64,000 bases of DNA, taken from NCBI GenBank assembly GCA_032622095.1, contig CP136066.1, positions 48,828,911-48,892,910 on the forward strand. Direction: 5' to 3'. This stretch comes from Siphonodentalium dalli. Its lineage: Eukaryota; Mollusca; Scaphopoda; Gadilida; Siphonodentaliidae. Shown piece by piece: positions 7,601 through 60,166 of the stretch. A program made the translations under genes and the position numbers. The notes below the pieces were generated by a model. It worked only from the letters and a program-made list of their open reading frames with translations, had not been told where the DNA came from and made no database searches. Each line of letters starts with the position of its first letter. The stretch's first letter is position 1.

Positions 7601-10600
7601 TTATGTCACAGTATGAAATAGCTGCTCTATGTTTTCGGAATGAATACACTATATTTGAGAATGTTGAATTTGAGAAGTACACCTTTTAATTCACAGATCT
7701 TAACAAAATAAGTGTTTTTTCTAGGCTATAAATCAATGTAATAAAATAGTTCAAACACAATGCAAGATTTTAATGATGTTTTATGTTAAAAGCCATCAAG
7801 GTGTCAGCAATGTGAATAGAATGTTATTGAAACTTCACCTATAAAATAACTGAATGATGCTGTACCAGTATAAATATATCACCTATAAAATAACTGAATG
7901 ATGCTGTACCAGTATAAATATATCACATAAAACATATCTCATTCTTGAGGTGTACAAATTTTACTCCATATAGTGAACGTCACAACATTTATGAAAAGTG
8001 CTATAACTAATATTTTCTGTTGTTTTTACTAATGATAAAATAATAAATGGCAACTTGTGTGCAGCCATTGCTGTTTCATAATTTAATGAGAAATACGCAG
8101 CCGCACGGTAATTGATCGTAATCAGCGTTATCTGTGTTTTTAGAGTTGTTCGTTACTGAACACGTAAACATGCCTTTATACTGTTACACGTATTTACAAA
8201 CAATGTTTTCAACACTTGCAATTTTGCAAACACTTGCGGAAATATTCTTATGAAGATAAACTCTCTATCCTTAGACTAATGTCCCTTAAGTACAGGCGAT
8301 TACGTGGCGACCTAATAGCGGTACTGCGGTATACAAAATAAAGAGGGAGCATTACAACATCAAACAAGAAACGCTATTCGCTGATGCAACATATGCACTG
8401 ACTAGAGGCCATTCGTGTGAAATGATGATCAAACACTGCAATAAAGATGTCAGAAAATACTTTTTTAACCCTTTACCCAACAGAAGGGCCCTGTGCCAAT
8501 GCATTCTCTTATATATGCGAGTCGACCATAGGTCGCCTCGCATATATAAGAGAATGCATTGGCTTAAAGGGGTACTGTACACGGGGATAGACAATTTTTG
8601 TTATTTACTCCCATTGAAATAACTTTCAAGTTAGATTGTGTTCGTGTTATATGAGTTTCGTGTAAACCTAATTTAGCGAAGAAAATATTGATCTTGGAAA
8701 CAAAAATATTACGATTTCAAACTACGCGCCATGTTTTTGACCTTCACCGGAGAAGACTCATGTCGCAGGAAGAACCGGAAGTTCATTGTTCAATTGATGC
8801 ATCCAATCTCTTCCATCGAACAATCTCACTCCGTATAAAATTATTGACGCTTCAGGACTCTTGTTTCTTTCTCCTTTTTTCCGATTCGGTTATAGCAGGC
8901 CTTTATTTTGCAGGTAACATGTTATGTGTGCAACTCAATAATGTTCGCGAACGGCCGTCGATAAAAGACACGCAACAGATACTATTTCAAGAACGGTAAC
9001 TCGTACTGGCATAATTCTCCATTTTATGACTCCAGCCATAAATGAATTTATATTAAATAATTCAATTTTACTTTTGTGATAGCCTGTTAACCGGAACGTT
9101 TTCAGTAGACATCGTCGACTCAAATTAGTTATTTAAAAATATAATATTGATATTAGATCGTTATTGTCACCGGGAATTTATTGAAATTGGGGTACAGTAC
9201 CCCTTTAACACATTAAAAATTATAAAATTGTTAAAGAATGTAAGAAAAAATGGTAAAAAGTGTTAAAAAAAGATTATTTTTAGGCCAATGCATTCTCTTA
9301 TATATGCGAGGCGACCTATGGTCGACTCGCATATATAAGAGAATGCATTGGCACAGGGCATAACTGTAACTATCACAATGTGGTCAAGGAGCCGGTTCCA
9401 ATGATATCCATATTTGTATGGTTCTATTGAGACAGACCGAAGATATTTTAGGCTGTTGAAGCTTTATTTGGCCGGTTTTGGCCGGTTTATTGGGTAAAGG
9501 GTTAAACAGATAATTCGACCAATCTGGGATAGGATACCAAATGCAGTCGTTAGTGCTGAAACTTTAACCCAGTTCAAGAAATTGTTTGACTACCACTATA
9601 TTGATATACAGTATCAAACAGACTTCCCATAATATGTTATTTTTATGTAATTTTTAAATGCGTAAGCACCGGAACTAAGAGTCGGTCAGACTCGTTTCCG
9701 TGAAATATGTGACCCGCCATATCAAATCCAGTCGTAAGTCGGGATTTTATTACCCTGTGCCAATGCATTTTCTTATATATGCGAGTCGACCATAGGTCGC
9801 CTTGCATATATAAGAGAATGCATTGGCCTAACAATTTTTTACAATTTTAATAATTTGTTCTTGTATTCTTTAACAATTTTATAATTTCACCCATACAGAG
9901 CCCCAGACAAACATGAGCAGACGAAACTCTTCTATATGCTTCTATATATGTGTGGGGCTCCCTGCAGGGTAATGGATGTTTTTTATTTTATGTCCTAAAA
10001 ATTGTAAGAAATATTTAATTAAAAAACATGATAAAAAATTGTTAGGCCAATGCATTCTCTTATATATGTCGACTCGCATATATAAGAGAATGCATTGGCA
10101 CAGGGTAAAAAAATCCTGACTTACAACTGGATTTGATATGGCGGGGCACATATATGATATGATATCGTCACTGGAGGATTATTCATAATGAAAATAAGAA
10201 CAAATTCTTTCTATTTTTCGACGTTCTTGGTAACAATGGTTTAACCCTTTCAGTGCCAGGGGGCCGATCTCATTGGCCCTAATTTACGGTCTGTAAAATC
10301 GGCCCTAAAAAATATAAAAAAAATAAAAAAAAATGTCTGTTAAAGAATATAATAAAAAATGATTAAAATTGTAAAAAATAATGAAAAAATGTTAGGCCAA
10401 TGCATTCTCTTATATATGCGAGGCGACCTATATCTGCGAGTCGACCTATATAAGAGAATGCATTGGCAGAGGGTATATGGGTTGATACAAAAATCGGACT
10501 TGGCACTCAAAGGTTTAACAAACTTGGTAAGAATTTTCAGCTGGTACCCATCGCCTTCTGTAGCTTTAAAATTATTTTTAAAAAGATGCATTTGATTTTA

Positions 10601-19380: not shown

Positions 19381-19452
19381 AGGTTTCGATTTTGTGGCGA
19401 TCTTGATTGCCCGGACTGGGTGTTAGCAGAAATAAGCACCCTATCCAAAATC
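19381..19452 (+). CDS. COMMD4: COMMD4 exon 2
   Basis: 72 nt, phase 0 at both ends, encoding [20 protein letters not shown] and LSKI. Acceptor TTCATTTTCAG, donor ATC|GTGAGT. This N-terminal block is nearly invariant in COMMD4 proteins. Confidence 0.96.
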
Positions 19453-22400
19453 GTGAGTATTTAAAGCTTATGATGTTTTATAGTTATAACTCATGGGAGC
19501 TATTTTTATCACATTTTTTTTATGCTCCTTTTGAAGAAAAATGACATACATTTGTATTATATTATAAGTCTCTCTGTCCGTCTGTTTGTTTGTTTTCATT
19601 TTCCGGATGATAGCTTTAGTAAGTCTGAACTGAATGGACTGAAATTTGGTATGTGGGTTTACTAGCACAAAATACAGGTCAAGTTCAAATTTGGTTCCGC
19701 CTGCAAATTTTCACCAGAGTTACGACCCTTTATGTTGGAATTTGCAATTAATTTTTGTTTCTGAATGATAACTCAAGTCAGTCTGAATTGAATGGAATGA
19801 AATTTGTTATGTGAGTTTACTATCCCAAAATACAGGTCAAGTTCAAATTTGTTTTCTGCCTGCCAATTTTTACCTCATTTAAGGCCCATTGTTGAAATTA
19901 CCCCAGGCGTATTTTGCCACGCCCTAGCGATGCTCTTGTTACTACTGGTATATAAGTTTCACTGCACATTAGTGTGTCCATCAACATTTTATTTAGATAA
20001 TGTTTTCTCAAAATCCATCCGGCCATTGCCGTCAATTTTTCAGAGAAGGTTCCTTGAAGGCCTTTGCAGATGGCTTCATCGTCATTGCAAGTGGCACATG
20101 ATCCGCGATTTTTTCTGCATTTGACACTGAATTAGAGCAAATGCTATGCAATCACATCGCACATTGCAGGCATCATGATGAAAGTGTCAAAAGTAAGAAT
20201 AGGACTAAGACCTAATTGAAGGTGGCATGCGGCACATATATGTGACAGTTTCCGTCATTTACATATACCGAGAGTGACAGATGTCAGAAATGGATCAACC
20301 CTGTCAAAGCTGGTTTTTTCGACCGTCAGTCTGGGTTTACAAATGATGTAGCTACGATCTTGTGAAATGGATATCTATGTGGATATCCGTTATGTGGCTA
20401 GCCACATAACAGCGTTCGTTTGAACCCTCAAAAATGATCGACTTGACTTAATCAGCCTATTTAATTTTGAAGACTCTTAAAAGTTGGAAACTAAGATGTA
20501 ACAGGACGAGAGAGAGAAGTGCGGGAGTCGCACTGAAAGTTGGCAGCACCACCGAAATCCCAAGCCGGTCACCCATCCAAGTACTAACCGAGCTCGACAT
20601 TGCTTAACTTCGGTGATCACACAAAGTGTCTAACGGTTGTGACCAAGAGATCTAGACCTCTCGAGCAGAGAGTCATCGGCCTTCTATATTTACAACGTGA
20701 CCACTACAAAGGAAAAGTCCATAGATTTAGACATCCACGGTCTGTCCACAGGAGGTGTTCAGACACCTATTCCACTGTCCAAGTTGCTGTATGAAAGTTT
20801 CTGAGTTTCAATCAGCTACTTTTGCTATAATTCTTACATGTTCTGATTATATAATCTGAAATTTTGATAGCCACCTAAAAATTTACCAACTACTTGAGAA
20901 TCCACATAAAAATTTAAGACACATAATTATTTTAGCCACATAGCTCATAGCAACATATCTGCCCGTTTGTTAGTCCGTCAGTCAGTTCATCCATCCCAGA
21001 TGGTTTCCGGATGATAACTTTAGTTTTAGTTATCTGATTGTTTTAAAATTTTGTATTTGGATTTATACCCACATGGAAAACACGTGTCAACTTCGGATTG
21101 GGGTTCAGTCTGCCCATACTCGAGGTGATAATGGGTGAACATCACCAACTTCAACTGTGGAACCTCAATCTGATCCTTGGTTCCCCATAGCAGCTGAGGT
21201 TTAAGCCGATTGATGTTCCCAGAAGGTGAATTTGGTTGTGCTATCCCGCGGTATAGCATCACTAATATTACCCTCTGGGAACCTCATTCTGCAAATGACA
21301 GACATACTATTTCAAGCTTGGACTCATTCCAAGAAATAAATAATTAATATACAAACCTGTTTTGGTTATTTCATTTATTGACCCCTGGTGATTTAGTGCT
21401 ATCAATATTTCTTTGCAGACATCTGTGAAAATGAAGCTGCTATGTTTGCAAGTTATAAAGGACTTACTAGGTGATAAACTGGATGTGAGTATAAGTTATA
21501 TGTAGATGTCTGAAAAGAGGTCATATATCCTTCATATAACCAACTCTAATAACACAAACTGAGTGCGAGCATTTAGATATACCTTGTAGTATATCACTAT
21601 TACACTTATTAATTTAAAGTGATTTGAAACACTGTTGTGACTCTCAGTGAATAAGCTTGCTCAACGTAGGTACATGTATTACAATAAATTTTGTATCAAG
21701 ACTGCCAGCATACAACTCCATTATTTTGTTAAATTAACCCTTTACCCAACAGAACGGCCCTGTGCCAATGCATTCTCTTGTATATGCGAGTCGACCATAG
21801 GTCGCCTCGCATATATAAGAGAATGCATTGGCTTAACACATTAAAAATTATAAAATTGTTAAAGAATGTAAGAAAAACTGATAAAAAAGTATTAAAAAAA
21901 GAGTCTTTTTAGGCCAATGCATTCTCTTATATATGCGAGGCGACCTATGGTCGACTCGCATATATAAGAGAATGCATTGGCACATGGCATAACTGTAACC
22001 ATCACAATGTGGTCAATGAACCGGTTCCAATGATATCCATATTTGTATGGTGTTATTGAGACAGACCGAAGATATTTTAGGCTGTTGAAGCTTTATTTGG
22101 GCGTTTTTGGCCGTTTTGTTGGGTAAAGTGATTTGAAACACTGTTGTGACTCTCAGTGAATAAGCTTGCTCAACGTAGGTATTTCAATAAATTTTGTATC
22201 AAAACTGCCAGCATACATCTCCATTATTTTGTTTTATAATACCCAGACATACGGGGACATAAGAACCGAAACCTAATATAAAACGTCCTGTATGTGAAGG
22301 TCGTTCATTGCCAGAGATATGTCCTCCTGACGAATCCATTAGCTGTTATTTATTTCTGATTCCCAACATTCTAAATACCTATTTTCCGCTTGGTCTTAGT

Positions 22401-25400
22401 AAACAATTCCCAAATTATATAATTAACGCGTCCTAATGTTTTCAAGCTATGCTGACAATCAAACATAAATTATTATATTGTATACTGCACTCTAGCAGTT
22501 TACTGTTTGCAAACTATATAGATACTAATAAAGAACATTGGTGATATTCAGTATGAATCAAATATTAAGATGGGTATTCCGCCGCTATGCCACTGATTCT
22601 CTTCTTTATATTTGTTTGACATACCTGTAGAGTCCTTGTGACATACTCCACAATATGTATCCAGGAAATGTCATTATCTGAATGCATACCAGTGGTTTTA
22701 GGACTTACCCTCATTCTAGCGGCTTTCCTAGCAACCCTTGAATAATTATACAACATTATTATGTAAAATTAAATAGAATGACTCTCATTGGAGAAAACAT
22801 TTTCGTTTGTTTGTCTTGATTTTTTTGGGTGGAACCAATGATTGTTTGTTTACAATTTTTGAGTAGTTCAGATGTTGTCTTTTAAAGGTACTCAACCCGT
22901 AAAGAGGGTCCCCATCTCAACAGATTCCAACAACAACAATCCGATCGGAGGGTCCTATATTACTATTTCTTTGGCTTTGGGGGTAAAAAATATTTGATTC
23001 GAGTCGAGGAACCCATCAAACAAAGCTCAGAGTTATTAGATATTGATTTTTGAAATTTGTTATAAACTCGAGATCAGTACTACTAACTGCCGTAATCTGC
23101 TCTGGATGTGTTCTCCAAATCTATTCAAACAGACAAGGATGGATAACTCTAAAATCAAGTGGTAATTTTAACGCAATTTTGACTGAGTTCTGGGCCAGAT
23201 AGTATTCCCGATAATGAAAAATAATAGATTTCTAAAATCGATATCTAACAAATCTGAGCTTTGATGGGTGACTTCCTCGACTCGAATCAAATATTTTTGA
23301 CCCCCGAAGCCATTGAAATAGTAATTGAGATGAGTTTTATCGGGTTGAGTACCTTTAAGAAATGGCACCGCAAATATTGTTGAATATTTTGAATGAGTAA
23401 TAATATATTAGTTTGATGAATAATAGTTTGCACGTAATATGGCTTAACAATTATTGATGTAAAAAATTAGTCTGAACTGACAGAATACAACGTAAATTTA
23501 AGTTGTGTGGGGAGGTGTCTTAGACCTCCCATAGCAGCCAAACAGTTGGATATTTGAGGATTTAATCCATCTTCGCTAAATGGATTCTCCCAATCAGTTA
23601 TAAAAGTGGACATTGGGATGTTCTATTATTCAATTGGAGGGATGTTCAGATAATAAAAGAAGATGAAAAGCTAATACAAGAAAGGTTCATATTAAGATAA
23701 TAAGTTCAACAAACTATCTATGAACTTATTATCTGAACATTTCCATAGAGAACTACTCGTCAATGAGTGTTTAAAATAAAAGGGTTAAAGTTTGTTGCAT
23801 CCTTGTCTGGTTCTGCGAATATTGATAAATTTGCTAAATATTTAAAGATACATAATCCAAATTATCTGACGTTTCTGATGATACAGGGACCATCAAATCA
23901 GATTGTGTACCTTTAACCCTTTACCCAACAGAAGGGCCCTGTGCCAATGCATTCTCTTATATATGCGAGTCGACCATAGGTCGCCTCGCATATATAAGAG
24001 AATGCATTGGCTTAACACATTAAAAATTATAAAATTGTTAAAGAATGTAAGAAAAAATGGTAAAAAGTGTTAGGCCAATGCATTCTCTTATATATGCGAG
24101 GCGACCTATGGTCGACTCGCATATATAAGAGAATGCATTGGTACAGGCTTAACTGTAACTATCACAATGTGGTCAAGGAGCCGGTTCCAATGATATCCAT
24201 ATTTGTATGGTTCTATTGAGACAGACCGAAGATATTTTAGGCTGTTGAAGCTTTATTTGGCCGGTTTTGGCCGGTTTGTTGGGTAAAGGGTTAAGCTGCT
24301 TGGGTTCTGTTGAACATAAATTACTAACCTGGAAGATACTTTTGAAGTTCATAATCAAACTAGTAAACTATATCTCTCTTAAATTTCAGTACCAAAAAGT
24401 AAACAAATTGACTGCTGATGCCAAATTTGGTAAGTTTTAAGTTAGCCGATGTGTGTGAAATTTTTGTATGACCCCATAGCCTCCAGGAGGTATTCGATTC
24501 TCTGATCTCCCTTGGAATGTATGATATCTATAGCAATCCATTTTTTAAAGTGGTGTGCTCGTTTTAAATTTAAATATTTTTTAATTTATATTTTTACACG
24601 TTTTAAGAACACGCTGACTAAATTGAACTGGCACAAATGAAACAATCTCAAATTTACCTGAGAAATATAAGAAACGAAACATGTTTTTTCAGTGCTATAC
24701 AACAATGTTTTTGTAGATAATGCCATGAATCTCTACTCTGGTTAATGCCTGTAGAGATCATATTCCACCAGTACAAAACTTGGATCTTTTTGAAGTCTTG
24801 ACAGGGAACCTAATAAATGCAAAAAAATAATGTGGGGAAATTGTTTCTTAGTTATTATCTGTTCCTTTATAATAATGTACTTCGCTGTAGGTGAAGATCC
24901 CAAGTCGAAATTGCATGGTTTTCCATGATGTTTGTGAGCTGATATCGCAATAAACATTGAATTAATTACCCATGAGAAATTCCATAATTGTAAATAACGC
25001 GAAGCAAAATCGCTCACAAGGTCGAAGATTAATTAAGGAACAGATAATAACTTAGAAATATATTCCCCGTGTTATTTTTCGACTTTATAAGGTTCCCTGT
25101 CAAAACTTCAAAGAGTTTGCAGGTTTTGTACTGGTGGAATATGATCTCTACAGGCGTTAGCCAGAGTAGAGATTCATGGCATGATCTAATGTTTTTTTAA
25201 ATCTTCTGCATAGGTATGTTTTGCGATACCTCTTACCAAACTATATACAGTAATGCCCTAAATAATATACCCCTTAACCACAGCAGAATTATGGGTAACT
25301 TTTCAGGATTTAGTCGGAAATATGGCTTGTTACCATTCATCGGAAAGCTCTCTCTTTCCGACTAAATCCTGAAAAGTTACCCATAATTCTGCTGTGATTA

Positions 25401-28400
25401 AGGGGTCGCTTTCTTAGGGCATTACTGTATTTGAATGAGTCATGTCCGTTTAATTTCTATTTTGTTTTCACAGAGAGCGGTGATATTAAAGCTAGCATCG
25501 CGGCACTGTCCCTCGTCATATCTAGTGCCACCAAGTACAGCGTCGATGGGGAAACGTTATCTAATGAATTACAGCAGCTGGGTCTGCCTAAAGGTACTGT
25601 CATGGTACTAACAGGAATGTTCAAGGTTCAATGTGATGAAATCTAATTAATTACAATGAATTACAGAAGCTTGGTCTGCCTTAATGGTACAGTTATTCAG
25701 ATCCTATTAGTGTTCAAGATTTAATTTGATTTAAAATTACCATCATCATCAATCAAGGCTACAAACTCGAAGAATGCAACAACTACCGACACGGTCAAAG
25801 TTAAAATTTCTGTCATATGCCCCCAAGCTGAAATGAGAAAGAAAGTTAAATAAAACAGATGTTTATGGTATAGATAGTTGTAACAATGCTCAAAGTTTGC
25901 CAGACGGAATCTGTTATGGGTTTACAACCAGATTTACATAATTTTGAGCTATTCTGTAAATCTGTAAGGCTAATTATAAGGTGCTGAAACCATATTATGC
26001 ACATTAATGGCACATTCTTAGAATACACTTTCTGGGAAATATTCAGTATATAATATATCATAAAATGTTAAAATACAACTCTGACACCTGCGAATGTCCT
26101 GAAAACCTGATTGTGTGATGTATTTTTTTGCACACAAAATTACAATGTTTGCTCAATATTCTCTCTTTTTCATTTAATGTTTTCAATAGTATAAACTGGG
26201 AAGATTTGACAAATGGATATAATATTATTCAGTTTATTTCTGATTTACTGGTCAACCAGTTTGTGTTTACGACCAGGTAGTTTTCCATTTCTTTTTCGCA
26301 GTTCTTCCTTCAGTTGTTTGAGTGAATAATTGTCATATTTTGGAGCAGATTCTGCCATCATGAATTGATATACTAGTACATCATTCATGGTTTCCATTTA
26401 ATAGTTGTCTATGCGAGAAATTGTGTTCTGTATCAGTATCTGTAGATATTTCAGTGCAGGAACCAATTCTGGTTGTAGACACACTGTGTTAGAATATTCT
26501 GTCCTCGGGCTTACATGTAGTAAAAATAGAAACGTGGTCACAGTGGTGTTAAAATATATTTTTATGTTGTTGTTGTAACTAGATGTCTAGAACCCTGAAT
26601 ACATCTTTATTAAAATTATTACTTTCATTAACCCTTTCTATACTAAATGGATTCTCCCATATAGCTATAAAAGTATACATTGGAATGGTCTATTATTCAT
26701 TTTGGAGTGATATTCAGGTAATGAAAGCAGACGAAAAGATATTACAAGTACAGAAGGGTTCTTATTCATCGGTTGGAAATGTTCAGATAATAAGTTAAAT
26801 GTTGAACTTATTATATGAACATTTCCTAAGGGAACTATTCGTCAATGAGTATTTATTTAGTACCGAAAGGGTTAATTACTGATTGTACAACTCGTTTATC
26901 AGCCAACTGTTGTGCCTATTGAACGGTTGAACCAAAAGTTATGAAAATGAGCATCAATTTTTATTTGTTTTATTTCTAGAACATTCCACAGCCCTGTGCA
27001 AGTCGTACAGCGACAACACAGAGAAACTACAAAATAAATTCCGAAGCCAGAGCCTAAGATGTGAGTAAAATTTCAGTAGTCTCATGGTGGGGAATCACGT
27101 CATTTCAAGGTCATGGTGGGGAATCACGTGGTTTCGAGGTCGGTGATTTCAGTAGACTCATGGTGTGGAATCACGTCATTTCGAGATCATGGTTGGGAAT
27201 CATGTGGTTTTGAGGTCATGGTGGGAAATTACGTGGTTTCGAGGTCGGTGATTTCAGCAGACTCATGGTGGGGAATCACATGGTATTGAGGTTGGTGAGT
27301 ACCACGCATGCAAAATGGCTGAAGCAAATGCAAATGCACAAAAACATAATATATGAGGAACTGACACAAAACATATCATTTTGACTGTCACAAGCCTTTT
27401 ATTTTTTAAAACAAGTTGATACCATATCTGTTCCAAAATTCTGACAAAAGTGGCCAGTCGTAGGTTCGTGAGTATTAATAAACCTGTCCATACATCTAGG
27501 AGAATTCTTCGACTGACAACTTTGGTCAGAATGTTAGAGCAAACAACTGTGAGTTTGGACACAAATGAGATATCAACATGTTTGAAAAATAGTATAGCAT
27601 ATACTCATACCGGTAGCTGCCAAAACACTATGTAATATGTCATATCCTAGTTTATTACCTTTTTTCTTGTTTCTGGTTATGTTTGAGATCGCCTCGACCA
27701 TTTTGAATGCATGATACTCCTCAACTCGAAACCACGTGATTCCCCACCGTAAGTCCGTAAACACTGCAATCATGACAGTATGCTGTACATTTGTGATAGA
27801 ATCAGATGGAGCAAATCTCTGAATATCTGACACCAGGCACATACAGTAATGCCCTAAATAAATGACTCCTTAACCACAGCAGAATTATGGGTAATTTTGC
27901 AGGATTTAGTCGGAATGTGGCATAGGAGAGCTTTCCGATGAATGGCAACAAACCATATTTCTGAGTAAATCCTGTAAAAATTCCCAATAATCTGCTGTGG
28001 TTAAGGAGTCAACTAGGGAATTACCTAGGCTTGGTAGGGTAGAGACCCAACATGCTTTAGCATAGACTCTGTCTACATGTGAAATTAAAGAGGGTCAAAT
28101 TCTCAAAATTTATTATATCAAAATTTGTCTGGATACTCGATGTTTGTAGTACATGTACCATTTTTATAGTATTTGTAGCAATACATAAGTCACGATATAT
28201 TACCCTTAAGCCATCAGACAAAAATAAAAGCAATTTTGTGACTTTAGTAAGTAAGCATGTGACTTCACATATATGTTGCTTGGTTATAGTGGAAACTATT
28301 TTTTGGAAGTCCGTCTAAAGATTGTTCCGTTTGGTGAGGTTTTACTGTACCAATATCATAGAAAACCATGAAATCCTGTCCCCACGAAATAGCCTTTTGA

Positions 28401-31400
28401 AGATCAGAAACTTTTTACTGGTGAAATCCAGGATATTCATATAACATACATGTATCACCTCTTCATATTTCACATCTCACTGTTGACATTCCTTGTAGGA
28501 GAGTATGGGCCTCACCTCCTTTTTATTTTTTTCTCTTCTCAGTACCTTACCTAGAAAATGTCCAGTGGCGGGTCGACTACATTCTCAGCTCCAGTGAACT
28601 CAAGGTAGATTTATAAATCCCACATTATATGAAATCTCCTGTTTCTATTTCATTCAGGTAATGAATTGATTGCCAGGTATGTTTTAACCCTTTCAGTGCC
28701 AGGGGCCGATCTCATCGGCCCTAATTTACGGTCTGTAAAATCGGCCCTAAAAAATTAAAAAACAAAAAATTCAATTTTTTTTTTTTTTAAAGATTTTTTT
28801 AGGTTGATTTTTTTTGGGTATGCTTAAGCATGCTATAGCAAATTTAAAAACAAACTGGATAAACCCTTAAGAGCATGTTATAACTCAAAACTATCACCAA
28901 GTATTCATTGTAATAATTTTGATGCCCATGAAAAACGTAAGATTCCCTGGCACTTAACCTACAAAATAAGTCTGTTAAAGAATATAAGAAAAAATTATTA
29001 AAATTGTAAAAAATTGTAAAAAATAATAACAAATGATGATAAATTGTTAGGCCAATGCATTCTCTTATATATGCGAGGCGACCTATGGTCGACTCACATA
29101 TATAAGAGAATGCATTGGCACAGGGTATATGGGTTGATACAAAAATCAGTTTCCACACCTAGCCTGTCTCAGGATGTGGAAAGTCTAGATTGATCTACAC
29201 AGAAAACTACTTAATTGTTAAGCTAGTACACCAGATTTTTTTTTCTCCTGATGATAACCTTAGATAATGTTGACTTAATGGAATTAAATTGGCATACATG
29301 TTTACAAACATAAAATACAGGTCAAGATCGATTTTGGGTTCTGTCCCCCAATTTTACTGGAGTTACGCATCTTTTTTTACTTTGAAATTCGGGTTTTCTT
29401 GTTTCCCTGTTGATAACTGTAGATACACAGTAGGGTAATGGGTGTATTATGTCCAATGGGTGTATTATGTCCAATGGGTGTATTATGTCACACCCAGTGG
29501 TGCCCTTGTTTGCAAATTTTTTAACAATATGTCAGGAAGTATGAGATGGAATTTCAAAGACATTTGTCATTGGGCTAGGAAGTAATACAAATATGAACAA
29601 TTGTTTGCTTTAACCCTTTTCAGTGACAGGGGCCGATCTCATCGGCCCTAATTTACGGTATGTATTATAATCGGCCCTAAAAAAAATTATATATATATTT
29701 ATTTTTTTTGGTTGAATTTTTTTGGGGTATGCTTAAGCATGCTATAGCGAATTTAAAAATGAAACAAACTGGATAAAACCTTAGGGGCATGTTATAACTC
29801 AAAACTATCACCAAGTATTCATAGTAATAATTTTGATGCCCATGAAAAATGTAAGATTCCCTGGCACTAAACTTACAAAATAAGTCTGTTAAAGAATATA
29901 AGAAAAAATTATTAAAATTGTAAAAAATTGTAAAAAAAATAACAACAAATGATGAAAAATTGTTAGGCCAATGCATTCTCTTATATATGCGAGGCGACCT
30001 ATGGTCGACTCGCATATATAAGAGAATGCATTGGCACAGGGTATATGGGTTGATACAAAAATCGGACCTGGCACTGAAAGGGTTAAAGCATCATTGATGA
30101 GTAGTTATCCATTAGGAAATGTTCAAATAATAAGTTCAACAAACGGTGTTTGTTGAATTCATTTTCAGAACATTCCCATCATTGAATACGATTCCTTCTG
30201 CACATTCTATTTCTTAACACCCCCTCCAAATAAATAATAGACCATTATAATGTATACTTTTATGACTGAGTGGGAGAATCCATTTAGTATATAAAGGGTT
30301 AAACGCTGCATATCAGGCTTTTTGTCAAATCTTTAGTACCGATTAAATTGGGCAATATAAATTCCGACATCATTTAACAAGGGGTACAACTCCTGCTTAA
30401 ATATTAAAATTCACCAGAATTCTATGTTTGCGGAAAGTGGAAATGCCAGCCTCACACCTTTGAACAGTAATACATACATCATTTTATTTTCATTTAGGAT
30501 ATAAATGAACCAAGTATCCAGCTAAAGATGAATGTCAAAGACCCTGATATGGAAGAATCAGAAGTGGTATCATTCACAGTATCATCTGATAAATTCACTG
30601 TCCTCTTACATGGTAAGTCTAACGGTATGAGCTGATAAATTCACTGTCCTCTTACATGGTAAGTCTGACAGTGTCAGCTGATAAATTCACTGTCCTCTTA
30701 CATGGTAAGTCTGACAGTGTCAGCTGATAAATTCACTGTCCTCTTACACGGTAAGTCTGACAGTGTCAGCTGATAAATTCACTGTCCTCTTACACGGTAA
30801 GTCTGACAGTGTCAGCTGATAAATTCACTGCTATCTTACATGGTAAGTCTGACAGTGTCAGCTGTTAAATTCACTGTTCTTTTACATGGTAAGTCTGACA
30901 CTGTCAGCTGATAAATTCACTGTCCTCTTACACGGTAAGTCTGACACTGTCAGCTGATAAATTCACTGTTCTCTTACATGGTAAGTCTGACAGTGTCAGC
31001 TGATAAATTCACTGTCCTCTTACATGGTAAGTCTGACAGTCAGCTGTTAAATTCACTGTTCTCTTACACAGTAAGTCTGACACTGTCAGCTGATAAATTC
31101 ACTGTTCTCTTACATGGTAAGTCTGACAGTGTCAGCTGATAAATTCACTGTCCTCTTACACAGTAAGTCTGACACTGTCAGCTGTTAAATTCACTGTTCT
31201 CTTACACGGTAAGTCTGATAGTGTCAGCTGATAAATTCACTGTCCTCTTACACAGTAAGTCTGACACTGTCAGCTGTTAAATTCACTGTCCTCTTACACG
31301 GTAAGTCTGACACTGTCAGCTGATAAATTCACTGTTCTCTTACATGGTAAGTCTGACACTGTCAGCTGTTAAATTCACTGTTCTCTTACACAGTAAGTCT

Positions 31401-34400
31401 GACACTGTCAGCTGATAAATTCACTGTCCTCTTACACAGTAAGTCTGACACTGTCAGCTGTTAAATTCACTGTTCTCTTACACGGTAAGTCTGATAGTGT
31501 CAGCTGATAAATTCACTGTCCTCTTACACAGTAAGTCTGACACTGTCAGCTGTTAAATTCACTGTCCTCTTACACGGTAAGTCTGACACTGTCAGCTGAT
31601 AAATTCACTGTTCTCTTACATGGTAAGTCTGACACTGTCAGCTGTTAAATTCACTGTTCTCTTACACGGTAAGTCTGATAGTGTCAGCTGATAAATTCAC
31701 TGTCCTCTTACACAGTAAGTCTGACACTGTCAGCTGTTAAATTCACTGTTCTCTTACACGGTAAGTCTGATAGTGTCAGCTGATAAATTCACTGTCCTCT
31801 TACACAGTAAGTCTGACACTGTCAGCTGTTAAATTCACTGTTCTCTTACACGGTAAGTCTGATAGTGTCAGCTGATAAATTCACTGTCCTCTTACACAGT
31901 AAGTCTGACACTGTCAGCTGTTAAATTCACTGTCCTCTTACACGGTAAGTCTGACACTGTCAGCTGATAAATTCACTGTTCTCTTACACGGTAAGTCTGA
32001 TAGTGTCAGCTGATAAATTCACTGTCCTCTTACACAGTAAGTCTGACACTGTCAGCTGTTAAATTCACTGTTCTCTTACACGGTAAGTCTGATAGTGTCA
32101 GCTGATAAATTCACTGTCCTCTTACACAGTAAGTCTGACACTGTCAGCTGTTAAATTCACTGTTCTCTTACACGGTAAGTCTGATAGTGTCAGCTGATAA
32201 ATTCACTGTCCTCTTACACAGTAAGTCTGACACTGTCAGCTGTTAAATTCACTGTTCTCTTACACGGTAAGTCTGACACTGTCAGCTGATAAATTCACTG
32301 TTCTCTTACACGGTAAGTCTGATAGTGTCAGCTGATAAATTCACTGTCCTCTTACACAGTAAGTCTGACACTGTCAGCTGTTAAATTCACTGTCCTCTTA
32401 AACAGTAAGTCTGACACTGTCAGCTGATAAATTCACTGTTCTCTTACACGGTAAGTCTGATAGTGTCAGCTGATAAATTCACTGTCCTCTTACACAGTAA
32501 GTCTGACACTGTCAGCTGTTAAATTCACTGTTCTCTTACACGGTAAGTCTGATAGTGTCAGCTGATAAATTCACTGTCCTCTTACACAGTAAGTCTGACA
32601 CTGTCAGCTGTTAAATTCACTGTTCTCTTACACGGTAAGTCTGATAGTGTCAGCTGATAAATTCACTGTCCTTTTACACAGTAAGTCTGACACTGTCAGC
32701 TGTTAAATTCACTGTCCTCTTACACGGTAAGTCTGACACTGTCAGCTGATAAATTCACTGTTCTCTTACATGGTAAGTCTGACACTGTCAGCTGTTAAAT
32801 TCACTGTTCTCTTACACAGTAAGTCTGACACTGTCAGCTGATAAATTCACTGTCCTCTTACACAGTAAGTCTGACACTGTCAGCTGTTAAATTCACTGTT
32901 CTCTTACACGGTAAGTCTGATAGTGTCAGCTGATAAATTCACTGTCCTCTTACACAGTAAGTCTGACACTGTCAGCTGTTAAATTCACTGTTCTCTTACA
33001 CGGTAAGTCTGACACTGTCAGCTGATAAATTCACTGTTCTCTTACATGGTAAGTCTGACACTGTCAGCTGATAAATTCACTGTCCTCTTACACAGTAAGT
33101 CTGACACTGTCAGCTGTTAAATTCACTGTTCTCTTACACGGTAAGTCTGATAGTGTCAGCTGATAAATTCACTGTCCTCTTACACAGTAAGTCTCACAGT
33201 GTCAGCTGATAAATTCACTGTTCTCTTAAATTCACTGTCCTCTTACACAGTAAGTCTGACACTGTCAGCTGTTAAATTCACTGTTCTCTTACACGGTAAG
33301 TCTGACACTGTCAGCTGATAAATTCACTGTTCTCTTACACGGTAAGTCTGATAGTGTCAGCTGATAAATTCACTGTTCTCTTACATGGTAAGTCTGACAC
33401 TGTCAGCTGTTAAATTCACTGTTCTCTTACACAGTAAGTCTGACACTGTCAGCTGATAAATTCACTGTTCTCTTACATGGTAAGTCTGACAGTGTCAGCT
33501 GATAAATTCACTGTCCTCTTACACGGTAAGTCTGACACTGTCAGCTGATAAATTCACTGTCCTCTTACATGGTAAGTCTGACACTGTCAGCTGATAAATT
33601 CACTGTTCTCTTACATGGTAAGTCTGATACTGTCAGCTGATAAATTCACTGTCCTCTTACATGGTAAGTCTGACACTGTCATCTGATAAATTCACTGTCC
33701 TCTTACATGGTAAGTCTGACACTGTCAGGTGTTAAATTCACTGTTCTCTTACATGGTAAGTCTGACACTGTCAGCTGTTAAATTCACTGTTCTCTTACAT
33801 GGTAAGTCTGACACTGTCATCTGTTAAATTCACTGTTCTCTTACATGGTAAGTCTGACACTGTCAGCTGATAAATTCACTGTTCTATTACATGGTAAGTC
33901 TGACACTGTCAGGTGTTAAATTCACTGTTCTCTTACATGGTAAGTCTGACACTGTCATCTGATAAAATCACTTTCCTCTTACATGGTAAGTCTGACACTG
34001 TCATCTGATAAATTCACTGTTCTATTACATGGTAAGTCTGACACTGTCAGGTGTTAAATTCACTGTTCTCTTACATGGTAAGTCTGACACTGTCAGCTGA
34101 TAAATTCACTGTCCTCTTACATGGTAAGTCTGACACTGTCATCTGATAAATTCACTGTCCTCTTACATGGTAAGTCTGACACTGTCAGGTGTTAAATTCA
34201 CTGTTCTCTTACATGGTAAGTCTGACACTGTCATCTATTAAATTCACTGTTCTCTTACATGGTAAGTCTGACACTGTCAGCTGATAAATTCACTGTTCTA
34301 TTACATGGTAAGTCTGACACTGTCAGGTGTTAAATTCACTGTTCTCTTACATGGTAAGTCTGACACTGTCAGGTGTTAAATTCACTGTCCTCTTACACGG

Positions 34401-36443
34401 TAAGTCTGACACTGTCAGCTGATAAATTCACTGTCCTCTTACACGGTAAGTCTGACACTGTCAGCTGATAAATTCACTGTCCTCTTACATGGTAAGTCTG
34501 ACACTGTCAAGTGTTAAATTCACTGTTCTCTTACATGGTAAGTCTGACACTGTCAGGTGTTAAATTCACTGTCCTCTTACACGGTAAGTCTGACACTGTC
34601 AGCTGTTAAATTCACTGTTCTCTTACATGGTAAGTCTGACACTGTCATCTGATAAATTCACTGTCCTCTTACATGGTAAGTCTGACACTGTCATCTGATA
34701 AATTCACTGTCCTCTTACATGGTAAGTCTGACAGTGTCAGCTGATAAATTCACTGTCCTCTTACATGGTAAGTCTGACACTGTCAGCTGATAAATTCACT
34801 GTCCACTTACATGGTAAGTCTGACACTGTCAGCTGATAAATTCACTGTCCTCTTACACGGTAAGTCTGACACTGTCATCTGATAAATTCACTGTCCTCTT
34901 ACATGGTAAGTCTGACACTGTCATCTGATAAATTCACTGTCCTCTTACATGGTAAGTCTGACACTGTCAGCTGATAAATTCACTGTCCTCTTACATGGTA
35001 AGTCTGACACTGTCAGCTGATAAATTCACTGTCCTCTTACACGGTAAGTCTGACACTGTCAGCTGATAAATTCACTGTCCTCTTACATGGTAAGTCTGAC
35101 ACTGTCAGCTGATAAATTCACTGTCCTCTTACACGGTAAGTCTGACACTGTCAGCTGATAAATTCACTGTCCTCTTGCATGGTAAGTCTGACACTGTCAG
35201 CTGTTAAATTCACTGTTCTTTTACATGGTAAGTCTGACACTGTCAGCTGATAAATTCACTGTCCTCTTACACGGTAAGTCTGACACTGTCAGCTGTTAAA
35301 TTCACTGTTCTCTTACATGGTAAGTCTGACACTGTCATCTGTTAAATTCACTGTTCTCTTACACGGTTAATCTGACACTGTCAGCTGTTAAATTCACTGT
35401 TCTCTTACACGGTAAGTCTGACACTGTCAGGTGTTAAATTCACTGTTCTCTTACACGGTAAGTCTGACACTGTCATCTGATAAATTCACTGTTCTCTTAC
35501 ACGGTAAGTCTGACACTGTCAGGTGTTAAATTCACTGTTCTCTTACACGGTAAGTCTGACACTGTCATCTGATAAATTCACTGTTCTCTTACACGGTAAG
35601 TCTGACACTGTCATCTGATAAATTCACTTTTCCTCTTACACGGTAAGTCTGATAGTATGAGCTGATAAATTCACTGTTCTCTTATACGGTAAGTCTGATA
35701 TAGACTCCGACGAAGGTTCGAGATTCAATTCGATTCAAAGTCTAATGGGAGATTCTTTTATATATCGATTATTGGTTACCCCATTTATTTCCTCATTTCA
35801 TTTTTTGAAATTTTAACAGAATTAAGCAACTATTAATTATTGCCGTGTAAGACTCTAGTCAATACACAAACACATTGCAAACTTCACGAGTTAAGCAATA
35901 GAGTTACAGAGTTATCGCGCTTGTGAAAAATACTTTTGTTCCATCAGGGTACTTAACCCTTTCAGTGGCAAGTCCGATTTTTGTATCAACTTATATAACC
36001 TTGATCATTTTTCAAATTTATTGATTATAATAATGTGATACATTGATGGAAAGAGCTCTTAGAGCTCTTTCCATCAATGTATCACATTATTATAATCAAT
36101 AAATTTGAAAAATGATCAAGGAAATATGGGTTGATACAAAAATCGGACTTGGCACTGAAAGGGTTAAACCTTTCATGACTGGAGCTTCCTGAAATTTTGT
36201 GAAAGCCCTGTGCCAATCTCCTATGGGAGATTCGAATATATCAGATACGGTACTGGTACAGGATCTTTTGTGCTGCATCAGCGCAGCTCCTTTAATGAAA
36301 GGGTTAGCTACTCAAATAATTAAGTAAAACTAATACAATATCTCCTATGAAACCGTCAGACCTATTTGGCTTTTTTCTACATTTTGTGTCTCATTTCAGA
36401 ATTAAAGCAAGCCCAAGCAATGATGGAGACGCTTGGAACGTAG
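19381..36443 (+). CDS. COMMD4: COMM domain-containing protein 4, exons 2-9
   Basis: COMMD4 is a subunit of the cytosolic Commander (CCC) complex, which works with Retriever in endosomal cargo recycling. Plus-strand join: 19381-19452, 21419-21484, 24390-24429, 25474-25593, 26980-27060, 28543-28604, 30498-30612, 36400-36443. All junctions are AG/GT and in phase. With a one-codon exon 1 the protein is about 200 residues, against 199 in mammals. It begins [19 protein letters not shown], carries the all-helical N-domain ([36 protein letters not shown]), and has a C-terminal COMM domain from about residue 135 ([14 protein letters not shown]) ending [14 protein letters not shown] then TAG. Introns carry many transposons; intron 8 (5.8 kb) is mostly one tandem array of exon 8's own donor region. 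Confidence 0.96.
19555..19965. repeat. Dispersed TTTCCGGATGATAACTTTAG repeat, two tandem copies
   Basis: GTCCGTCTGTTTGTTTGTTT, then TTCCGGATGATAGCTTTAGT, GGTTTACTAGCACAAAATAC and AAGTTCAAATTTGG appear twice, ending GGCGTATTTTGCCACGCCC. Related pieces at 20985-21080, 29235-29350 and 40310-40490. COMMD4 intron 2. Superfamily not determined. Confidence 0.7.
20525..20632 (-). pseudogene. 5S rRNA-derived sequence (partial)
   Basis: On the minus strand: GATCACCGAAGTTAAGCAA, then GGTTAGTACTTGGATGGGTG and ACCGGCTTGGGA, which are the internal control region (box A, intermediate element, box C) and 3' stem region of metazoan 5S rRNA. The 5' ~40 bases are not recognisable and the 3' end differs, followed by a GA-rich tract. 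Either a 5S pseudogene or the head of a 5S-derived SINE. COMMD4 intron 2. Confidence 0.8.
21121..21318. mobile_element. Palindromic GAGGTCCCC family, partial
   Basis: GGTGAACATCACCAACTTCA through ATGTTCCCAGAAGGTGAATT to CAGACATACTATTTCAAGCT. Left end missing; lies 100 bp upstream of COMMD4 exon 3. Confidence 0.8.
21419..21484 (+). CDS. COMMD4: COMMD4 exon 3
   Basis: 66 nt, phase 0 at both ends, encoding [20 protein letters not shown] then LD. Acceptor TTTCTTTGCAG, donor GAT|GTGAGT. Matches the SSVKLRLLCSQVLKELLG segment of the family. Confidence 0.94.
21615..22233. repeat. 110-bp direct duplication bracketing a TTAA element
   Basis: AAAGTGATTTGAAACACTGT...CCATTATTTTGTT occurs at 21616-21731 and 22125-22233. 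The second copy is fused to the element's right end at GGGTAAAG, which has lost GGTTAA. COMMD4 intron 3. Confidence 0.9.
21738..22128. mobile_element. TTAA element, CCCTTTACCCAACA family, right tip lost
   Basis: TTAA at 21734-21737 on the left; right TIR TTGTTGGGTAAAG stops before GG|TTAA. Two hairpin cassettes in opposite orientation. Confidence 0.9.
22886..23354. mobile_element. TTAA element, AGGTACTCAACCCG family
   Basis: TTAA at 22882 and 23355; TIR AGGTACTCAACCCG / CGGGTTGAGTACCT. Inner arms AGAT...CTTTGGCTTTGGGGG and its inverse. COMMD4 intron 3. Confidence 0.9.
23566..23784. mobile_element. TTAA element, ACTAAATGGATTCTCCCA family
   Basis: TTAA at 23562 and 23785. GCTAAATGGATTCTCCCAAT at the left; TGTTCAGATAATAA motifs; right end AATAAAAGGG. 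Confidence 0.85.
23917..24290. mobile_element. TTAA element, CCCTTTACCCAACA family, full copy
   Basis: TTAA at 23913 and 24291. Two hairpin cassettes; right arm with the GAGACAGACCGAAGATATTT block. Ends about 100 bp upstream of COMMD4 exon 4. Confidence 0.93.
24390..24429 (+). CDS. COMMD4: COMMD4 exon 4
   Basis: 40 nt, phase 0 to phase 1, encoding [13 protein letters not shown]. Acceptor AAATTTCAG, donor TTTG|GTAAGT. A TTAA transposon lies about 100 bp upstream. Confidence 0.94.
24715..25186. mobile_element. Foldback CATGAATCTCTACTCTGG element
   Basis: TGCCATGAATCTCTACTCTG, GTAGAGATCATATTCCACCA at the left, inverted at 25120-25180 (CTACAGGCGTTAGCCAGAGT). Related copies at 45961-47053 and 61716-61901. 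COMMD4 intron 4. Confidence 0.88.
25248..25427. mobile_element. Foldback TA element, 46 bp upstream of COMMD4 exon 5
   Basis: TA at 25246 and 25428; CAGTAATGCCCTAAATAATA ... GGGCATTACTG. Shortened centre. Confidence 0.9.
25474..25593 (+). CDS. COMMD4: COMMD4 exon 5
   Basis: 120 nt, phase 1 to phase 1, encoding [20 protein letters not shown], then [20 protein letters not shown]. Acceptor TTTTGTTTTCACAG. The donor AAG|GTACTG is weak against consensus. A 92-bp tandem copy of the exon end plus donor follows in the intron. A foldback transposon ends 46 bp upstream. Confidence 0.95.
25563..25740 (+). repeat. 92-bp tandem duplication of the COMMD4 exon 5 donor
   Basis: AATGAATTACAGCAGCTGGG at 25563 recurs as AATGAATTACAGAAGCTTGG at 25655, followed in both by GTCTGCCT and GTAC(T/A)G. 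The copy therefore includes a decayed exon end and a donor-like site. Downstream similarity (TGTTCAAG...) continues for about 60 bp. Confidence 0.85.
26632..26871. mobile_element. TTAA element, ACTAAATGGATTCTCCCA family
   Basis: TTAA at 26628 and 26872; CCCTTTCTATACTAAATGG / ...TTTAGTACCGAAAGGG. Contains a GTTCAGATAATAAGTT inverted pair. COMMD4 intron 5. Confidence 0.9.
26980..27060 (+). CDS. COMMD4: COMMD4 exon 6
   Basis: 81 nt, phase 1 to phase 1, encoding [20 protein letters not shown] then FRSQSLR. Acceptor TTTATTTCTAG, donor AGAT|GTGAGT. A GGGGAATCACGTGG-type repeat starts about 40 bp after the donor. Confidence 0.93.
27080..27295. repeat. GTGGGGAATCACGTGGTTTCG tandem repeat in COMMD4 intron 6
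   Basis: About seven imperfect copies of CATGGTGGGGAATCACGT + (C/G)(A/G)TTTC(A/G)AGGTC. An inverted copy of the motif (CTCGAAACCACGTGATTCCC) at 27725 suggests the whole 27278-27750 segment is a foldback element with repeated ends. Confidence 0.75.
27844..28024. mobile_element. Foldback TA element, decayed
   Basis: TA at 27842; CAGTAATGCCCTAAATAAAT; right end GGAATTACC no longer matches well. COMMD4 intron 6. Confidence 0.82.
28543..28604 (+). CDS. COMMD4: COMMD4 exon 7
   Basis: 62 nt, phase 1 to phase 0, encoding [20 protein letters not shown] then K, the start of the COMM domain with its conserved Trp. Acceptor TTTTTCTCTTCTCAG, donor AAG|GTAGAT. Confidence 0.94.
28688..29147. mobile_element. 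TTAA element, CCCTTTCAGTGCCA family, right tip lost
   Basis: TTAA at 28684; CCCTTTCAGTGCCAGGGGCC; one hairpin cassette at 29050-29118; breaks off after GGGTTGATACAAAAATC. Includes the TATGCTTAAGCATGCTATAG block. COMMD4 intron 7. Confidence 0.87.
29438..29492. repeat. 18-bp triplication
   Basis: GGGTGTATTATGTCCAAT three times in tandem in COMMD4 intron 7. Confidence 0.9.
29614..30082. mobile_element. TTAA element, CCCTTTCAGTGCCA family, full copy
   Basis: TTAA at 29610 and 30083. Same internal block and hairpin as 28688-29147, so the two are recent relatives about 0.9 kb apart. Confidence 0.92.
30087..30298. mobile_element. TTAA element, ACTAAATGGATTCTCCCA family, inverted
   Basis: Shares the TTAA at 30083-30086 with the preceding element; right TTAA at 30299. 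Ends ...GAGAATCCATTTAGTATATA, AAGGG. It ends 199 bp upstream of COMMD4 exon 8. Confidence 0.88.
30498..30612 (+). CDS. COMMD4: COMMD4 exon 8
   Basis: 115 nt, phase 0 to phase 1, encoding [20 protein letters not shown], then [18 protein letters not shown]. Acceptor TTTTCATTTAG, donor CATG|GTAAGT. Its last ~27 bases and the donor are the founder unit of the 46-bp array that follows. Retaining the intron would add eight residues and then stop at TGA. Confidence 0.95.
30583..35705 (+). repeat. 46-bp tandem array of the COMMD4 exon 8 donor (about 110 copies)
   Basis: Unit: exon-derived CTGATAAATTCACTGTCCTC + TTACATG, then donor GTAAGTCTGACAGTGTCAG; 27 + 19 = 46 bp. The first unit is the real exon end (donor at 30613), the second donor is at 30659 and the last at 35689. 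Almost every copy keeps an intact GTAAGT; one near 35365 is GTTAAT. Units carry ACATG, ACACG or ACACA before the donor and GATAAA or GTTAAA in the exon part. A truncated unit occurs near 33220. The right third has GTCATCTGATAA, closer to the exon (ATCATCTGATAA). The array fills about 88% of intron 8. Confidence 0.98.
31640..33190 (+). repeat. 92-bp higher-order dimer zone within the array
   Basis: Here two unit types alternate: A (GATAGTGTCAGCTGATAAAT...TCCTCTTACACA) and B (GACACTGTCAGCTGTTAAAT...TTCTCTTACACG). The AB dimer recurs many times, with a few interruptions, whereas the left and right flanks are mostly monomeric. This pattern is a sign of recent unequal exchange or amplification in the centre. 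Edges are approximate. Confidence 0.8.
35957..36163. mobile_element. TTAA element, CCCTTTCAGTGCCA family, palindromic short form
   Basis: TTAA at 35953 and 36164. Nearly perfect hairpin centred on GAAAGAGCTCTTAGAGCTCT. Lacks the CCAATGCATTC cassette. COMMD4 intron 8. Confidence 0.92.
36168..36303. mobile_element. TTAA element, ATGACTGGAGCTTCCTGAA family, short
   Basis: Shares the TTAA at 36164-36167 with the previous element; right flank TTAG. Hairpin cassette mostly deleted. Ends 96 bp before COMMD4 exon 9. Confidence 0.85.
36400..36443 (+). CDS. COMMD4: COMMD4 exon 9 (terminal)
   Basis: 44 nt including TAG, phase 1 start, encoding [14 protein letters not shown]. Acceptor TGTCTCATTTCAG. 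Matches the conserved C-terminus ELKQAQTLMSSLG of the family. No convincing poly(A) hexamer close by; an AATAAA lies near 37526. Confidence 0.95.
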
Positions 36444-59174: not shown

Positions 59175-59520
59175 CCCGAATGAATGGGCCTGAAAATTCG
59201 AGATTTAACCACAACCGTCTCATCCTCCAATGAGTGGGCGAGAAAATTCGGGATTTAACCACAACCGTCTCAATTCTCCAATGAATGGGCGAGAAAATTC
59301 GGGATTTAACCAAAACCGTCCCAATTCTCCAATGAATGGGCGAGAAAATTCGGGATTTAACCACAACCGTCTCAATTCTCCAATGAATGGGCGAGAAAAT
59401 TCGAGATTTAACCACAACCGTCTCAATTCTCCAATGAATGGGCGAGAAAATTCGGGATTTAGCCACACACGTCTCAATTCTCCAATGAATGGACGAGAAC
59501 ATTTGGGATTTAACAACTAG
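59175..59520. repeat. 51-bp minisatellite, about seven copies
   Basis: Unit CAATGAATGGGCGAGAAAAT, TCGGGATTTAACCACAACCG, TCTCAATTCTC. 51 is a multiple of three, so frames stay open on both strands (for example 111 and 98 codons on the minus strand) with 17-residue repeats. Decayed copies go on to about 59800. No sign that any frame is translated. Confidence 0.93.
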
Positions 59521-60166
59521 CTTGTATGTTCTTCAACGAATGAGCGAGAAAAATCAGGATTTAACTACCCCTATACGATGTCTCATTTCGCAAATGAATG
59601 GACGAGAACATTTGTCTCTAATGAATAGGTGAGAAAATTAAGGATTTAACCACGATAATCTCAGTTTTCAAACGAATAAGAGCTCGGGATTTAACCACGA
59701 CCGTTTCAGTTTTAACCACGTCCGTTTCAGTTTTACAATGAAAGAAAGAGAACATTTGGGATTTAACCACGAATGAGACAGTTCTCTCCAACGAATGTGT
59801 CGTCACATGCATGTGATATAGAGGGATCGTTGGGTATTATCAATGTCATGCGAGTTCAGAGGCTCGTTATTTTCCGAGAAGATAGAGATGCAATGGTAAA
59901 GAAGATCCTATATACCTGAATAATGGAGATCACAACATGAGATCAGAAAGGACAATGAGCGTCAACATAGTAGAGCGGTTTCGCAAAACTCACGACCAAC
60001 ATTTACGAACCGATTGTATACTGTAAATTCAACTAGATGGATAATAATGTAGAAAAAACTTAGGGTTTCGAGGATGCGAAAATGCGATTATTTTTGCGAT
60101 GATATTGACCCTACTCGCTGATGAGTTTATTGTATTCCCATTGATGCATTTGTGGGGAGGTTCAGC

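Follow-up and report, generated by a model that had tools for sequence, protein, structure and literature searches.

The 64,000-nucleotide stretch of DNA analysed here (the window) corresponds to C6:48828911-48892910 in a 2.23-Gb assembly of 9 contigs, and carries on its forward strand a gene with eight exons bearing proper splice sites, which together encode a 199-residue open frame lacking the first methionine. The exon numbering assumes one earlier exon carrying the ATG, so that the model covers exons 2 to 9, exons 2 to 8 being bounded in it by AG acceptors and GT donors. The predicted protein finds its best match among PDB sequences in the COMMD4 chain 8f2r_D (198 residues, E 1.8e-74) and contains the Pfam domains COMM_HN and COMM_domain, which identify the gene, as judged from its sequence, as a COMMD4 orthologue. 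The gene model and the 8f2r_D match bear out the initial annotation, which had placed an array of splice donors at exon 8 and intron 8 of COMMD4. The features of the gene and of its array are as follows:

19381-19452, + strand: COMMD4 exon 2
21419-21484, + strand: COMMD4 exon 3
24390-24429, + strand: COMMD4 exon 4
25474-25593, + strand: COMMD4 exon 5
26980-27060, + strand: COMMD4 exon 6
28543-28604, + strand: COMMD4 exon 7
30498-30612, + strand: COMMD4 exon 8, 115 nt, ending in ATG before GTAAGT
30579..30612, + strand: exonic source of the repeat unit, last 34 nt of exon 8, its bases 30579-30585 resembling +13..+19 of the unit
30582..35698, + strand: 46-bp minisatellite with 111 units, 110 GTAAGT donors and 40 distinct unit sequences (Tandem Repeats Finder, direct count, unit table)
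30613..30618, + strand: true donor of exon 8 (GTAAGT), numbered donor 1 among the 110 (frame to exon 9; identical in a second COMMD4 copy)
30633..30635, + strand: in-frame TGA reached by any transcript skipping donor 1 (gene model)
31136..33452, + strand: central block of the array, units 13-62, with many ACA units and many units carrying T at +11 together with G at +13 (unit table)
35701..36399, + strand: unique rest of intron 8 and acceptor before exon 9, holding an inverted repeat at 35953-36167
36400..36443, + strand: COMMD4 exon 9, 14 residues then stop (gene model, protein match)

The inverted repeat 3′ of the array has 107-nt arms, 95% complementary and 1 nt apart. Another intron of the gene holds a tandem repeat at 27070-27298 (29/47/76/105-bp periods) that begins about 9 bases after the exon 6 donor, the donor itself being excluded. 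Further repeats of the window comprise the arm GCCAATGCATTCTCTT, probably part of a small palindromic mobile element, whose copies at 29051 and 29967 open near-perfect palindromes with 33-nt arms, and a 51-bp tandem repeat:

762, 4810, 4958, 6804, 8495, 9284, 10046, 10396, 21764, 21913, 23943, 24074, 29051, 29967, 58014, 60447, + strand: the sixteen copies of GCCAATGCATTCTCTT
59179-59565: 51-bp tandem repeat, 7.6 copies, with open frames on both strands, including ones of 121 and 103 residues

Tandem Repeats Finder describes the interval 30582-35698 with a period of 46, 110.9 copies and 91% matches, and the array occupies 88% of the 5,787-bp intron 8. Its head-to-tail units of 46 bp, 111 in number, fall within the range of about 10-100 bp that characterises minisatellites. 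A direct count found 110 GTAAGT motifs inside the array, in agreement with the roughly 110-fold amplification first proposed, and their spacing is exactly 46 in 105 of the 109 intervals; the single unit devoid of the motif, unit 104, reads GTTAAT at that place. Outside the array GTAAGT occurs 15 times on the + strand and 16 times on the - strand of the window, so that about one would be expected per 5.1 kb of one strand.

The edges of the array reveal where the unit came from. On the right flank the intron matches the units over 12 bases (GTAAGTCTGATA) and then diverges; these first 12 intron bases read GTAAGTCTGATA in 18 units and GTAAGTCTGACA in 90. On the left side, exon bases 30579-30585 (GTATCAT) are similar to unit positions +13..+19, with units 1 and 110 (GTATGAG) showing the likeness best; this stretch is GTATGAG in 2 of the 111 units, CTGTCAG in 67, GTGTCAG in 25 and CTGTCAT in 14. 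From these matches, the copied piece most likely comprised the last 34 bases of exon 8 and the first 12 of intron 8. A 46-bp unit joining exon end and intron start had thus been correctly recognised from the beginning, whereas the 27 + 19 division originally given to it is replaced by 34 + 12. The exonic part codes for a stretch conserved with human COMMD4 (SADKFQVLLAELKQAQ against a 16-letter human peptide), and since the copied part is conserved COMMD4 coding sequence, the exon is the source of the unit. A minisatellite can therefore be seeded by, and contain, coding sequence, and exchange between its units might in principle alter the end of exon 8.

A 35-place unit pattern, allowing up to 3 mismatches, was also searched for throughout the 2.2-Gb assembly, giving 110 forward and 1 reverse places, whereas its reversed-pattern control gave none in either orientation. 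Locally, this rule yields 110 matches within the array plus 1 in a second copy of COMMD4, which accounts for all of them and indicates that the unit has no copy elsewhere in the genome; a 241-bp junction probe likewise matches two COMMD4 loci only. The insertion at exon 8 of a dispersed repeat or transposable element is rejected on this basis. The search was the one by which a repeat family with the same unit elsewhere should have come to light, and it supports the early proposal that the unit arose from the exon's own donor. Altogether, the unit includes the 5′ splice site of its host exon and the array starts at the exon end, as expected of a donor minisatellite of the IFI6 type.

Differences between units are concentrated in a few columns. 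When the seven irregular or edge units (1, 10, 57, 58, 104, 110 and 111) are left out, 29 of the 46 columns are unchanged among the remaining 104 of the 111 units, positions +1..+8 being 8 of these 29. Selection on the donor was considered and rejected as the cause, given that +1..+8 are nearly invariant but much of the rest of the unit is equally so; this near-invariance thus points to youth or homogenisation of the array rather than selection, and the absence of visible constraint may still be compatible with selection. GTAAGT is immediately preceded by ATG in 46 units, by ACG in 40 and by ACA in 24 (n = 110), and over all 111 units the junction dinucleotide is TG in 46, CG in 41, CA in 24 and TA in none. 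Such a pattern would be expected from the decay of a methylated CpG, each step being then copied along the array. Decay of this type at the ACG-GT junction, together with 40 distinct sequences among 111 units, fits ordinary mutation plus copying.

The order of the units along the array is non-random: the highest identity reached in 200 shuffles is 0.933, which is surpassed at lags 2, 3, 4, 6, 7 and 10. Tandem Repeats Finder scores a 138-bp, three-unit reading (93% matches) above the 46-bp one, but a fixed higher-order repeat of three units was discarded: over the whole array lag 2 (0.940) exceeds lag 3 (0.937), and the sub-blocks do not exceed their shuffles. In units 63-109 the identity at lag 3 merely equals the shuffle maximum to three decimals, and in the central block, where the units stand in partly alternating order, lag 1 gives 0.915 and lag 2 gives 0.950, with no lag from 1 to 12 above the shuffle maximum of 0.961. 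Local or block copying of units is likely.

The assembly contains at least 42 U1 snRNA loci in clusters on C1, C4 and C6, many of those on contig C1 being tandem copies spaced by about 2.15 kb, and in 10 of 10 loci read, out of these at least 42, the 5′ end is the standard ATACTTACCTG. Pairing with U1 reaches -9.1 and -9.3 kcal/mol for the ATG and ACG donors of the array and -5.6 kcal/mol for the ACA ones. The other COMMD4 donors range from -5.6 to -9.1 kcal/mol, so that the ATG and ACG donors of the array are equal or stronger. A G at -1 marks 86 of the 110 donors as strong, donor 1 among them, and the other 24 are weak; the description of all units as near-consensus donors therefore holds for the former and not for the 24 ACA donors. 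Among 3211 GT sites of the window outside the array, 7 and 5 reach -9.1 and -9.3 kcal/mol respectively, and 209 reach the weak value.

Donor 1 is the only one of the 110 whose joining to exon 9 restores the full COMMD4 C-terminus. This agrees, as does the gene model, with the initial view that the leftmost donor is the real one and that a rule favouring it may be needed. Any later donor leads to the TGA at 30633, a stop common to all of them, giving 185 true residues followed by 7 others with loss of the last 14. The usual rule for mRNA decay sets a distance of 50-55 nt between stop and junction. The stop lies 23 nt before the junction for donor 2 and at least 69 nt before it for donors 3-110, and these last are consequently predicted to lead to mRNA decay.

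RNA structure was evaluated as a rule selecting donor 1. Region 30560-30700 folds somewhat better than its shuffles (z -2.2; 5 shuffles out of 200 match it), and in each unit CTTAC can pair with GTAAG; three 10-unit stretches gave z values of -4.6, -1.9 and -5.5 (60 shuffles each), against which 5 of 100 controls made of tandem shuffled units fold as well. The predicted accessibility of donor 1 is 0.20, that of the next four 0.17-0.18, and later ones among the first 23 reach up to 0.48. Structure was rejected as the selecting rule, donor 1 being about as accessible as the next four and the tandem shuffled-unit control folding too.

Three GTAAGT motifs within short gaps occur genome-wide at 8,854 + 15,826 places, against 18,110 + 18,881 for the reversed pattern, which means no enrichment; matches inside an array overlap one another and do not count as independent, and the first 100 listed are all on C1. 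Among the matches listed with their letters most look like tandem repeats, one of them an array with GTAAGT about every 20 bases that covers at least C1:7376939-7378843. Since such clusters are frequent and unenriched, donor-like arrays are not special as such, and it is the seat on the host exon's own donor that is.

A second COMMD4 copy lies on the same scaffold, within an inverted arrangement of large extent:

C6:48963083-48987327, opposite strand: second COMMD4 copy, exons 2-9 intact, 116 kb from the first copy
about C6:48973150-48975310, - strand: 2.1-kb element inside the remnant array, with about 11 inner 164-bp repeats and matching ends TAGCTCAACTTA
C6:48739224-49091200, both arms: palindrome centred on a 100-N gap at 48914877, each arm 175 kb or longer; the gap lies outside the window

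The end of exon 8 and the first donor are identical in both copies. After the donor, the second copy shows the first part of unit 2, the 2.1-kb element, a shortened last unit with GTAAGTCTGATA and then the same right flank, pieces that we read as remnants of about three units. Because these remnants sit at the same place, a short array predates the split of the two copies; judging from the sequences, either the array-bearing copy would have grown to 111 units or the other would have shrunk. Over 200 codons the copies differ in 10, of which 9 are synonymous and 1 is non-synonymous (pS 0.069, pN 0.002); an M/K difference in exon 8 is among them. Such a low level of non-synonymous change fits an array-bearing copy that may still be functional, and a young array would look alike.

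The comparison of 111 units with remnants of about three is probably one between alleles, though it may be one between paralogues, two possibilities that the palindrome helps to distinguish. Over the 126 kb left of its centre, 76% is covered by inverted matches of at least 200 bases with a mean identity of 94%, and on the right arm a probe taken 175 kb from the centre finds its mirror image over its full length, with 95% identity. Probes 225 kb to the right and 300 kb to the left, both partly repeats, show no mirror partner among the 40 candidates scored for each, and for three probes of the palindrome's extent that are largely repeats the lack of a partner is weak evidence. A 100-N run is the usual size of a scaffold join, and second haplotypes that escaped purging commonly appear in this way, joined head to head in the scaffold. 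Most probably, then, the second COMMD4 copy is the other haplotype, left unpurged. A true inverted segmental duplication, with the array expanded in one of two paralogues, seems unlikely to us, even though both copies stand inverted on one scaffold with exons 2-9 intact and a palindrome centre, being hard to assemble, might also leave a gap. What speaks against it is that the centre consists of the 100-N run, that the right contig matches left-arm sequence from its very first base, 5.1 kb inside the end of the left contig, that the homology of the arms is broken by many insertions, with matches of at least 400 bases mostly at 90-99.7%, and that no mirror partner appeared for the two distant probes. 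An assembly artefact or an over-expanded array, conceivable inasmuch as tandem arrays can be mis-sized in assembly, is in turn very improbable, since a looped error would hardly yield 40 different units arranged non-randomly, end units that diverge, and the remnants in the second copy. As the second copy is probably the other haplotype, the individual would be heterozygous for a large difference in array length, which brings its own control, and this length is probably polymorphic between alleles. On a separate note, the assembly probably retains an unpurged haplotype around the C6 gap, and gene counts there may be doubled.

Whether the donors do anything is a second matter on which readings diverge. 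The pairing of 86 of them at least as strongly as every other COMMD4 donor, the distance of over 55 nt from stop to junction for 108 (donors 3-110) and the case of IFI6, for which two downstream repeat units are described as acting as donors (PMC4526556), would all suit a working splicing rheostat, in which U1-binding donors compete with donor 1 and COMMD4 output tracks array length or haplotype. We nevertheless consider this doubtful, as the donor carries no selective signature, accessibility is predicted to be alike for donor 1 and the next four (0.17-0.20) and 24 of the 110 donors are weak. Moreover, an exon 8 extended past a few units exceeds the length that exon definition normally accepts. 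The sequestration of U1 or changed splicing raised in the initial annotation is thus conjectural. Slightly less probable still is the stricter proposal that a bank of U1 sites, 86 of them strong and 24 weak, present on one haplotype, sets the amount of correctly spliced COMMD4 mRNA; if it were true, array length would be a heritable, fast-mutating splicing dial and the other haplotype its near-empty control. Use of some units as acceptors, leading to micro-exons or recursive splicing inside the array, is highly unlikely. It could invoke the 24 units that carry CACAG-TAAGT or a close form after a pyrimidine-rich stretch, and the best of the 256 AGs of the array, which scores 7.4, a value attained by 1.3% of 559 other intronic AGs. 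These scores come from a matrix built from just the gene's own 8 acceptors (3.6-13.4 when each is left out), all 8 being used for the array AGs, and recursive sites need an AG directly before the donor GT, which is found in 0 of the 110.

The array is real and is well explained as a young donor minisatellite. The explanation that we favour, and regard as probable, is that it was seeded by the exon 8 donor, grew on one haplotype and is mostly tolerated, with donor 1 being used; the sequence of the array, its origin and uniqueness, the gene model, the reading-frame consequence and the second copy all support it. The junction of exon 8 and intron 8 (34 + 12 bases) would have been tandemly duplicated, creating a second donor, and unequal exchange or slippage, the former being the mode of growth that we infer, would have extended it to 111 units on one haplotype while the other kept about three remnants. 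The array would be mostly a tolerated passenger. The 115-nt exon 8 would be defined together with its nearest donor, leading to the choice of donor 1, whereas the use of later donors would stretch the exon to hundreds or thousands of bases; the 86 strong copies, to which donor 1 belongs, would otherwise be latent sites that may bind U1. Any leak to a later donor would add 7 residues and remove 14, including the end of the COMM domain, or trigger the predicted mRNA decay. Most splicing should thus start from donor 1 and a minor share from donors 2-5, and some transcripts may retain the intron. Classical work argues against such a first-donor preference, in that competing strong donors can favour the site nearest the acceptor. 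The choice between intron-proximal and intron-distal donors is reported to be set by SR proteins such as SRSF1 and by hnRNP A1 (PMC5585400), for which reason an outcome other than dominance of donor 1 is possible.

Tandem duplication of splice signals is not without parallels in other systems. The donor minisatellite of human IFI6 is reportedly made of a short unit of about 12 bp in tens of copies, and a tandem repeat in ABCA7 has been linked to altered splicing. Minigenes carrying two or three sites are the usual means of studying how the spliceosome chooses between identical donors. Some 110 donors in one intron, together with a nearly array-free probable allele that has the same exon end and donor, constitute on the other hand a natural test, in which an allele-specific comparison would show whether position alone, that of the first donor by the exon, suffices. 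A narrow search of the literature found no description of the array, the papers that it gave on COMMD4 together with tandem repeats being, by title and abstract, on cancer. The initial annotation was aware of no described case, but a precedent exists: the minisatellite in the transcript of interferon-induced IFI6 (6-16, G1P3) is stated to provide multiple splice donors (Turri, Cuin and Porter 1995, Nucleic Acids Res 23:1854), and another account of that gene mentions three mRNA species from two downstream repeat units serving as donors (PMC4526556). The COMMD4 minisatellite similarly carries putative extra splice donors, but its unit is 46 bp long with 34 coding bases, it comprises 111 of these units, and use of any donor after the first disrupts the protein. 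Human MIR137, in which a variable tandem repeat is linked to altered splicing (PMC6692358), and human ABCA7, with another variable tandem repeat (PMC6660495), offer a looser likeness; in the portions of these reports available, their units are not presented as copies of the host exon's own donor, which the COMMD4 unit is. Intron gain by tandem genomic duplication (PMC4974935) similarly involves a local duplication that copies splice signals, whereas the COMMD4 copies lie inside an existing intron, with no new intron evident and no donor placed after an AG. Cryptic decoy splice sites, which according to a published account can hold back normal splicing and cause intron retention (PMC8706089), resemble the array in possible effect only. 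The COMMD4 array is thus an extreme form of the rare kind of repeat found in IFI6, on what is reportedly a larger scale: a donor minisatellite, known as a kind, in which the copy number, the unit and the array-poor sister copy are new.
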